Assembly (NCBI GenBank): GCA_903868245.1
Contig: CAIPUN010000113.1
Location: 1-33,233 of the forward strand
Origin: an uncultured Sphingomonadales bacterium
Lineage (GTDB): Bacteria > Pseudomonadota > Alphaproteobacteria > Sphingomonadales > Sphingomonadaceae
Direction of reading: 5' to 3'
DNA: 33,233 bases
In this document: positions 18,279 to 20,692 of the stretch, one piece after another
Numbering within the stretch: position 1 is the stretch's first letter
Layout: every line of letters starts with the position of its first letter
The notes under the pieces: generated by a model
Told to the model about the DNA's origin: nothing
What the model saw: the letters and a program-made list of their open reading frames with translations, nothing else
Database searches by the model: none
Program-made: the position numbers and the translations under genes

Positions 18279-19601
18279 ATGTGGAAGCATGTGCGCAATA
18301 TCGTTTTGATCGTCATTGTTCTGGCGCTTGCTGGCATTTGGTACATTACGCGGCCGGATGTTGCTAAGCTTCCACTTGATGCAGTTACCGGTGCGTCGCC
18401 CGAAATTACCGCGCCCCGCCCGGAGATTTTTCCGACCATCAAAGTGGCCGACGTAGATCGCTGGCAAGCTGGTGAGGCGCCCGTTGCTGCGCCGGGCCTC
18501 ATTGTCGAACGCTTTGCCGAAGGCCTCGATCATCCCCGCAATTTATATATGCTGCCCAATGGTGATATTCTGGTCGCCGAAACAAACTCGCCGCCGCGTG
18601 ACCTTGGCGGCGTTGAAGGCTTTGTGATGAAATGGCTGATGGGCAAGGCGGGTGCCGGTGTTCCTTCGGCTAACCGCATCACCTTGCTGCGTGATGCCGA
18701 TGGTGATGGCAAGGCGGAACTGAAAACACCATTTCTGACAGGGCTGAATTCGCCGTTCGGCATGGTACTGATTGGTGAGAAGCTCTATGTCGCCAACACC
18801 GATGGTTTGGTCGTTTTTCCATATAAAACGGGCGATACGAAAATTACCGCCAAGGGTAAGGAACTGACAAAGTTCAACGCCATGGCTCCTAACAACCATT
18901 GGACGCGCAACCTTGCGGCGTCGCCAGATGGTAAGAAAATCTACATCGCGGTGGGGTCAAACAGCAACATTGGCGAGCATGGCATGGAGACCGAAAATGG
19001 CCGTGCCATGGTGCTGGAGTATGACATCGCGAAGGACAAGAAAATTCCTTACGCCATTGGCATGCGCAATCCCGTCGGTCTTGATTGGGACAAAAAGGGT
19101 CGTTTGTGGACTGTCGTGAACGAACGCGACATGCTGGGTTCCGATATGGTGCCGGATTATCTGGCGCTCGTTGAATTTGGCGCCGATTATGGTTGGCCGC
19201 AACATTATTGGGGCGGATTTACCGATGCCCGTGTGTCGCCGCCAAAGCCAGCAAAGCGGGAATATGAACGCCGCCCGGATTACGCCCTTGGTGCGCATAC
19301 AGCGCCGCTTGGCTTGGCTTTTGGCTATAACGGAAAGCTGGGTGCTCGCCTGACCGAAGGGGCATTTGTTGCGCGCCATGGTTCATGGAACCGCAAGCCT
19401 GTGTCGGGATATGACGTGATCTTCGTTCCCTTTGCCAAGGGCGAACCCTCTGGCAAGCCCATCAATATCCTAACGGGCTTTTTGGACAAGGATGGCAATG
19501 CGCAGGGGCGCCCAACGATGCTTGCCATGGCAAAGGATGGATCGCTTTTAGTCAGCGATGACGTCGGCAATATCATTTGGCGGGTACGGGCGAAGAATTA
19601 G
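18279..19601 (+). CDS. PQQ-dependent sugar dehydrogenase-like (L-sorbosone dehydrogenase family) protein
   Basis: 440-aa ORF with N-terminal membrane segment; GLDHPRNLYMLPNGDILVAETN, AIGMRNPVGLDWD and ADYGWPQHYWGG motifs. Confidence 0.85.
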   Translation: MWKHVRNIVLIVIVLALAGIWYITRPDVAKLPLDAVTGASPEITAPRPEIFPTIKVADVDRWQAGEAPVAAPGLIVERFAEGLDHPRNLYMLPNGDILVAETNSPPRDLGGVEGFVMKWLMGKAGAGVPSANRITLLRDADGDGKAELKTPFLTGLNSPFGMVLIGEKLYVANTDGLVVFPYKTGDTKITAKGKELTKFNAMAPNNHWTRNLAASPDGKKIYIAVGSNSNIGEHGMETENGRAMVLEYDIAKDKKIPYAIGMRNPVGLDWDKKGRLWTVVNERDMLGSDMVPDYLALVEFGADYGWPQHYWGGFTDARVSPPKPAKREYERRPDYALGAHTAPLGLAFGYNGKLGARLTEGAFVARHGSWNRKPVSGYDVIFVPFAKGEPSGKPINILTGFLDKDGNAQGRPTMLAMAKDGSLLVSDDVGNIIWRVRAKN

Positions 19602-19863
19602 GGTCAGGACCACTTAAATCCACCTTCGCGGCGTCAAAATGGCAAAGATATCGAAGCAAAATGTCCGCCGCAGGCAGTCATTCTGCCTGCAAGGGCATTT
19701 TATTTCGAGATCGAAGCCATTTTGGCGTCCTTTGGATTTGACCCATTTTGTCCATTGCCACGTTGGCAAGCTTGGACTTAGAACCACTAAGCCCTGCGCT
19801 TACCGCCTTGCACTGAACAAAATGGCCTCAAACCGCGAAGGTGGATTTAAGTGGTCCTGACCC
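19601..19863. repeat. structured intergenic inverted-repeat element (MITE/REP-like candidate)
   Basis: perfect 31-bp terminal IR GGGTCAGGACCACTTAAATCCACCTTCGCGG (19601-19631)/CCGCGAAGGTGGATTTAAGTGGTCCTGACCC (19833-19863); internal hairpin A (12-bp arm 19632-19643/19716-19727, apex GCAGGCAG-TCATT-CTGCCTGC 19670-19690) and hairpin B (19737-19753/19815-19832). Confidence 0.9.
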
Positions 19864-19876
19864 TCGGGTCCTGACC

Positions 19877-20692
19877 CTAAATCTTCCGTCCCGCGCGGCC
19901 GGCAAGCTCCACGGTATAATGCCATGCAATCCGGCCTGAGCGGCCGCCGCGCCCTTGGGCAAAACCCAGCGCATCTGCTTCGTCCCAGTCCAAGTCGAAA
20001 TGGCTGGCGTAGCTGCTGACCATGTGCAGATACGCGTCCTGATCAGGATATTGGAAGCCCATTTTAAGGCCAAATCGGTCAGCTAAGGCAAGACTGTCGT
20101 CGATGGAATCGCGTGTGTTCATGGCGTCGGCCTGTTCCTTGCCGTCGCGCTCAACGATGTTTCGGCGGTTGGATGTAACGCAAAGCCGGACATTGTTCGG
20201 ACGCGCCTCCACACCGCCCTCAAGCAATGACCGCAATAAACGCGCATTTTGGTCGTGCGGCTCGAACGAGATATCGTCTATAAATAACAAATAACGCCGA
20301 CCCGACGCGCCCAATTCTTCAAACAACGCTGGTAGGCTCGTTAAATGACTTGAGGCGGCTTCGACCAACGCAATGAAGAAACCGTCTTCCTGCAGTGCAG
20401 CCACCACAGATTTAACCAAGGCCGATTTGCCCATGCCGCGGGCGCCCCATAACAGGACATCATGCGCGGCTGCACCCGAGGCGTGTCGCCGGCAATTTTC
20501 ATATAGATCCGACTTTTGCCGGTCGACCCCAACGATGAGGTCAATCGGTAATGGCTGGAAATCATGCACCGCTGCCAAGGCCGTTCCGTTCCAATGATAT
20601 GCAGGCGACGACGATAGATTGATTGGCGGCGCTGGCGGGGGTGACAGCCGCTCCAGCGCTTCGGCGATACGTTTGAGCGTCTGCTCGTTCAA
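19877..20692 (-). CDS. DUF815-like AAA+ ATP-binding protein
   Basis: 271-aa ORF with Walker A GARGMGKSALVKS and Walker B-like YLLFIDDISFE; TTG start overlapping the upstream TGA stop. Confidence 0.88.
   Translation of the reverse strand: MNEQTLKRIAEALERLSPPPAPPINLSSSPAYHWNGTALAAVHDFQPLPIDLIVGVDRQKSDLYENCRRHASGAAAHDVLLWGARGMGKSALVKSVVAALQEDGFFIALVEAASSHLTSLPALFEELGASGRRYLLFIDDISFEPHDQNARLLRSLLEGGVEARPNNVRLCVTSNRRNIVERDGKEQADAMNTRDSIDDSLALADRFGLKMGFQYPDQDAYLHMVSSYASHFDLDWDEADALGFAQGRGGRSGRIAWHYTVELAGRAGRKI

Follow-up and report, generated by a model that had tools for sequence, protein, structure and literature searches.

The 263-bp element between two convergent genes in the window (the whole analyzed stretch, 33,233 nucleotides of a 1.97-Mb Sphingorhabdus MAG) is very probably, at about 0.92, a non-autonomous mobile element (MITE) on whose ends an IS5-family, IS427-type transposase acts in trans, inserting it at YTAR with duplication of the TA. 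The family is multicopy, its insertions duplicate TA, empty sites are found, and its ends are common to IS5/IS427 elements of the genus; mobilization in trans by a transposase of these elements is the most likely explanation suggested by these sequences. The first-pass annotation of the locus had proposed a non-autonomous mobile element, either a MITE or a unit moved by a RAYT/Y1 transposase, or else a terminator or RNA. The MITE reading is retained here, and the RAYT/Y1 mover and the terminator or RNA are not. The TA on the left side of the element and a 12-bp palindrome directly to its right had been overlooked.

Structure and distribution of the element

The element (Table 1) is bordered by a perfect inverted repeat of 31 bp, 32 bp if one flanking base is counted, lying exactly where it had been placed before; the computed chance expectation of such a repeat in 263 bp is ca. 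1e-14. Both ends are themselves imperfectly palindromic (GGGTC-AG-GACC). The ORF list contains no frame of at least 80 aa confined to the element, in agreement with the earlier opinion that it encodes no convincing protein, and it is thus short, non-coding, and flanked by terminal inverted repeats, as MITEs are.

Table 1. Features of the element and its surroundings (window coordinates)
Feature	Position	Strand	Basis
Glucose/sorbosone dehydrogenase-like gene; stop codon made of TA and the first G of the element	18279..19601	+	
Left TA target copy; makes up, with G19601, the stop codon (TAG) of the upstream gene	19599..19600	.	
MITE, full-length form, 263 bp	19601..19863	+	sequence; further copies in the MAG and in congeners
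Left terminal inverted repeat, IS5/IS427-like end GGGTCAGGACC..TTAAATCCACC	19601..19631	+	
Hairpin A, module missing partly or wholly in the 203- and 177-bp forms	19632..19727	+	alignment, fold, covariation
Hairpin B, module missing in the 159-bp form	19734..19834	+	alignment, fold, covariation
Right terminal inverted repeat	19833..19863	-	
TC separating the element from the scar, probably a mutated TA	19864..19865	.	sequence; TA at this place in L117 and L178
12-bp palindromic scar GGGTCCTGACCC, left by a further MITE copy	19866..19877	.	
Right TA target copy; makes up, with base 19877, the stop codon (TAG) of the minus-strand gene	19878..19879	.	
DUF815 ATPase gene; stop codon made of TA and the first G of the scar	19877..20692	-	

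The RNA fold of the element has an MFE of -150.6 kcal/mol (z = -15) and the DNA fold a z of -15.5, and none of 200 shuffles folded as well. Both folds contain two internal hairpins, A and B, joined in a three-way junction, which supports the structure predicted in the first-pass annotation. Of the two mini-hairpins predicted along with it, CTTAG/CTAAG is present in both folds and TTGCCA/TGGCAA appears in the DNA fold but not in the RNA fold.

Besides the window copy, the MAG carries a full copy on contig C100 (89%), a partial one cut off by the end of contig C55, and one shortened by deletion to 80 bp on C64. The search of the host and related genomes, advised earlier, covered 60 sampled relatives and revealed the family in 25 of 36 congeners and in none of the 24 from outside the genus. 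When 84,980 species were scanned with a 29-bp end, 71 stretches matched, all labelled Sphingorhabdus or Sphingomonadaceae/Sphingomonadales MAGs. In the genome richest in copies, G026, which is apparently that of isolate WA123a, exact TAGGGTCAGGACC ends number 183, and the reversed pattern does not occur. In total, 113 distinct insertions were collected, so the family is dispersed and multicopy, with target duplications and empty sites described below. Literature searches for a MITE of Sphingomonadaceae or Sphingorhabdus found nothing relevant; the non-coding family is new, and the kind of element is already well known. A diverged subfamily (G015, G021, G031; e.g., L201-L212, L222) shows 75-80% identity and another hairpin B loop, several of its matches being limited to the core (query 37-249), with ends diverged or different. 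In one copy (L083, 2815-3077) the inner part of hairpin B is inverted, as if flipped between the arms.

The copies have discrete lengths, mainly 263, 203, 177, 159, and 80 bp, because hairpin modules are lost: according to the alignment, the 203-bp form lacks the top of hairpin A, the 177-bp form most of A, the 159-bp form B, and the 80-bp form both. At one orthologous locus, forms of 80, 159, 192, and 264 bp are found in different genomes.

Target site, stop codons, and scars

The target of the element is YTAR, the TA of which is duplicated on insertion. TA is present on both sides in 83 of the 113 distinct insertions, and pyrimidines make up 94% of the bases preceding TA. The first-pass annotation had recommended looking for empty sites, and an orthologous one was found for the window locus itself: L082 reads GAAGGATTAAATCTTCC and the window GAAGAATTA-(263 bp)-TC-(GGGTCCTGACCC)-TAAATCTTCC. 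Empty sites with a single TA also occur at other loci (L108, L064, L182, L115, and the slightly diverged L189).

In L082 the TAA stops of the convergent genes overlap in TTAA, whereas in the window both stops are TAG; each of the two proteins ends in nearly the same residues in L082 and in the window. Since the element begins with a G beside the duplicated TA, both genes gained a TAG stop, and thus the insertion split two overlapping stop codons, yet both genes are intact. In a joined-flank analysis, coding interiors were avoided by insertions, and stop codons received 41% of the non-coding insertions but make up 18% of the YTAR sites in non-coding DNA (p = 6e-6), percentages that are approximate because the gene calls were simple ORFs. 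Purifying selection is enough to account for both the enrichment at stop codons and the avoidance of coding sequences.

The TA-flanked 12-bp palindrome occurs 49 times genus-wide, against no occurrence of the reversed pattern. At five loci the element (full or 80-bp) and the palindrome occupy the same position in sister genomes (L170/L012; L062/L011 and L246; L125/L243; L213/L092; L175/decayed L117 and L191). Its sequence is the leftover expected from a deletion between direct 4-bp GGTC or GACC repeats of both ends, and the palindromes beside the element and at sister loci are regarded as MITE deletion scars. They most likely formed by slippage between the short GGTC/GACC repeats within each end; alternatively, they may be footprints made by the transposase. 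A scar with TTAG beside it offers a YTAR site once more, which would explain the element-plus-scar tandems in the window, L117, and L178.

Partner IS elements and other candidate movers

The partner elements were reached through a chance neighbour in L051, followed by a protein search of the genus genomes, 16 of 45 of which contain IS5-family elements (E <= 1e-8; the weaker of these matches represent other IS5 types). Uninterrupted copies are 839-910 bp long, and those with readable ends start with TA followed by GGSTCAGGACYYATTAAAT. The MITE shares its ends with these autonomous elements, at best 23 of 26 bases (the right end of G022 L135 against a variant MITE end), sharing being limited to the terminal ca. 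20-26 bp; random 24-mers reach 15/24 identity at ca. 2e-4. The transposase, with Pfam domains PF13340, PF01609, and PF13586, is encoded in two frames with an A6G/G6 slip site at ca. 397-418, so that the partner elements have the features of the IS427 group (ca. 830-870 bp, a two-frame IS5 DDE transposase, a slip site). Insertion at the TA of YTAR, another feature of the group, is represented here by the YTAR statistics and empty sites of the MITE; TA stands at both ends of the listed partner elements as well, but it was included in the search pattern and hence is no independent evidence.

IS427-group elements of Paracoccus are 832-865 bp long and in most cases have a DR of 2 bp and two ORFs that overlap (PMC3281130), and IS711 duplicates the TA of YTAR (PMC2266754); the length, two-frame layout, and TA flanks of the partner elements fit both. 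They resemble IS1248, ISPaes, and ISPpa of Paracoccus and IS711/IS6501 of Brucella in size, in the two-frame transposase with a slip site, in the 2-bp TA duplication, and in ends of ca. 15-25 bp, from all of which the window element differs in having no transposase gene and an unrelated interior. Since the MITE ends match those of IS5/IS427 elements and have the same TA flanks, an IS5/IS427 transposase, not RAYT/Y1, is the most likely mover.

In the proposed course of events, an IS427-type transposase would recognize the MITE ends in trans, and insertion at YTAR would duplicate TA. The window copy would have entered TTAA, the overlap of two convergent TAA stops, both being rebuilt as TAG. Afterwards the copies would degrade as hairpin A, hairpin B, or both are lost, until nothing but the 12-bp palindrome is left. 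No PF13340 (IS5) transposase is detectable in the window's own genome, and with its source missing there, the window copy is probably stranded. Two observations speak against this explanation: the MITE and the IS elements have no more than their termini in common, and PF13340 is also absent from most of the tested MITE-bearing genomes, including near-complete S. wooponensis, and from most MITE-rich ones; the copy-rich G026 has 14 matches.

Several other arrangements were observed among the IS elements. Four genomes (G012, G022, G028, G002) contain full IS5/IS427 elements and no MITE match. In G002 (L139 681-2934, G002:C78) an IS5/IS427-type element is apparently broken by a 358-aa frame resembling an IS110-type transposase. 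Another IS5-family element of G026 (L156 1044-1891, G026:C1:45696), with ends TAGGCCACAGACTCATTATG/TAGGTCACATACTCAT and eight equal-score matches in that genome, adjoins a MITE copy, the TA being common to both.

The earlier proposal of a REP/REPIN unit moved by a Y1/RAYT-like tyrosine transposase agrees with the imperfect palindromes at the MITE ends, and the element resembles REPINs in its two inverted palindromic units, intergenic position, and many copies. Moreover, RAYT loci in G025 (L053) and G029 (L052) have similar-looking TAGGGACAGTCCC palindromes. This origin is nevertheless very unlikely and was rejected: the recommended search for the transposase found no Y1_Tnp (PF01797) in the own genome and found it in only four of 45 genus genomes, none of them copy-rich; TA is duplicated, whereas REPINs make no target duplication; the GTAG tag is absent; the RAYT-locus palindromes differ in sequence; and the ends match IS5/IS427. 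The RAYT-type genes bordered by these palindromes (L053 74-860, 215 aa, and L052) form a REP-like system of their own within the genus.

TA duplication is also a property of IS630/Tc1-mariner elements, two of which, of the IS630 type, are present in copy-rich G026. Their ends, CTAGAGCGGCGCACTG.. and TATACCAACCTGC.., do not match those of the MITE in a direct comparison, and such elements were found in only one of 16 genomes searched, which makes descent of the MITE from them extremely improbable, and it was likewise rejected. One IS630-type element, with five transposase matches in G026, has inserted into a MITE copy, at a TA of hairpin B (L133 1388-2559, G026:C12).

Conservation of the helices and significance

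All helices of the element are maintained through compensatory changes. Across 73 full copies, 97% of base-pair cells are kept, and the slid controls keep 33-44%. Both sides have changed in 44 of 105 pairs, with 291 double-change cells against 29-53 in the controls (L208, misoriented in alignment A1, is excluded from the count). Taking the scored pairs from the fold of one family member gives the true register an advantage, but such a bias does not explain the difference in double changes.

Preservation of pairing on this scale, together with the enrichment at stop codons, could mean that an element mobile by origin has hairpins now maintained because they serve the host or act as RNA (as a terminator, in mRNA 3' protection, or as a small RNA). 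We consider this unlikely: there is no Rfam match up to E = 1, an intrinsic-terminator T-run is absent from the element, hairpins are frequently deleted, and the enrichment is equally expected if other insertions are harmful. In our reading of the covariation table, the rare single-side changes yield G-U and A-C about equally, which points to upkeep at the DNA level. The structured bidirectional terminator or RNA of the first-pass annotation is thus neither required nor demonstrated, though the helices are kept. A tentative and rather doubtful reading is that the branched structure was selected as an aid to movement or survival of the element, e.g., by folding as single-stranded DNA while the DNA is replicated or by capping the 3' ends of the mRNAs on either side, and that the G-first end combined with YTAR makes stop codons safe landing sites sparing convergent genes.

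Small palindromic repeats tied to a TA-duplicating IS (IS711, YTAR) are known in another alphaproteobacterium, Brucella, as Bru-RS1 and Bru-RS2, reported as insertion hot spots; they are another repeat family, likened here by description. The pneumococcal RUP, a MITE of IS630-Spn1, is also non-coding, uses a TA target, and has ends common to the IS presumed to act in trans, but it is 107 bp long and belongs to IS630 instead of IS5.

The present data name a likely mobilizer for a repeat family widespread in a single aquatic genus and provide a natural series at orthologous sites, from the full element through hairpin-deleted forms to the 12-bp scar. They also indicate that a G-first element with a TA target can enter stop codons, including a pair that overlaps, and leave the protein unaltered.
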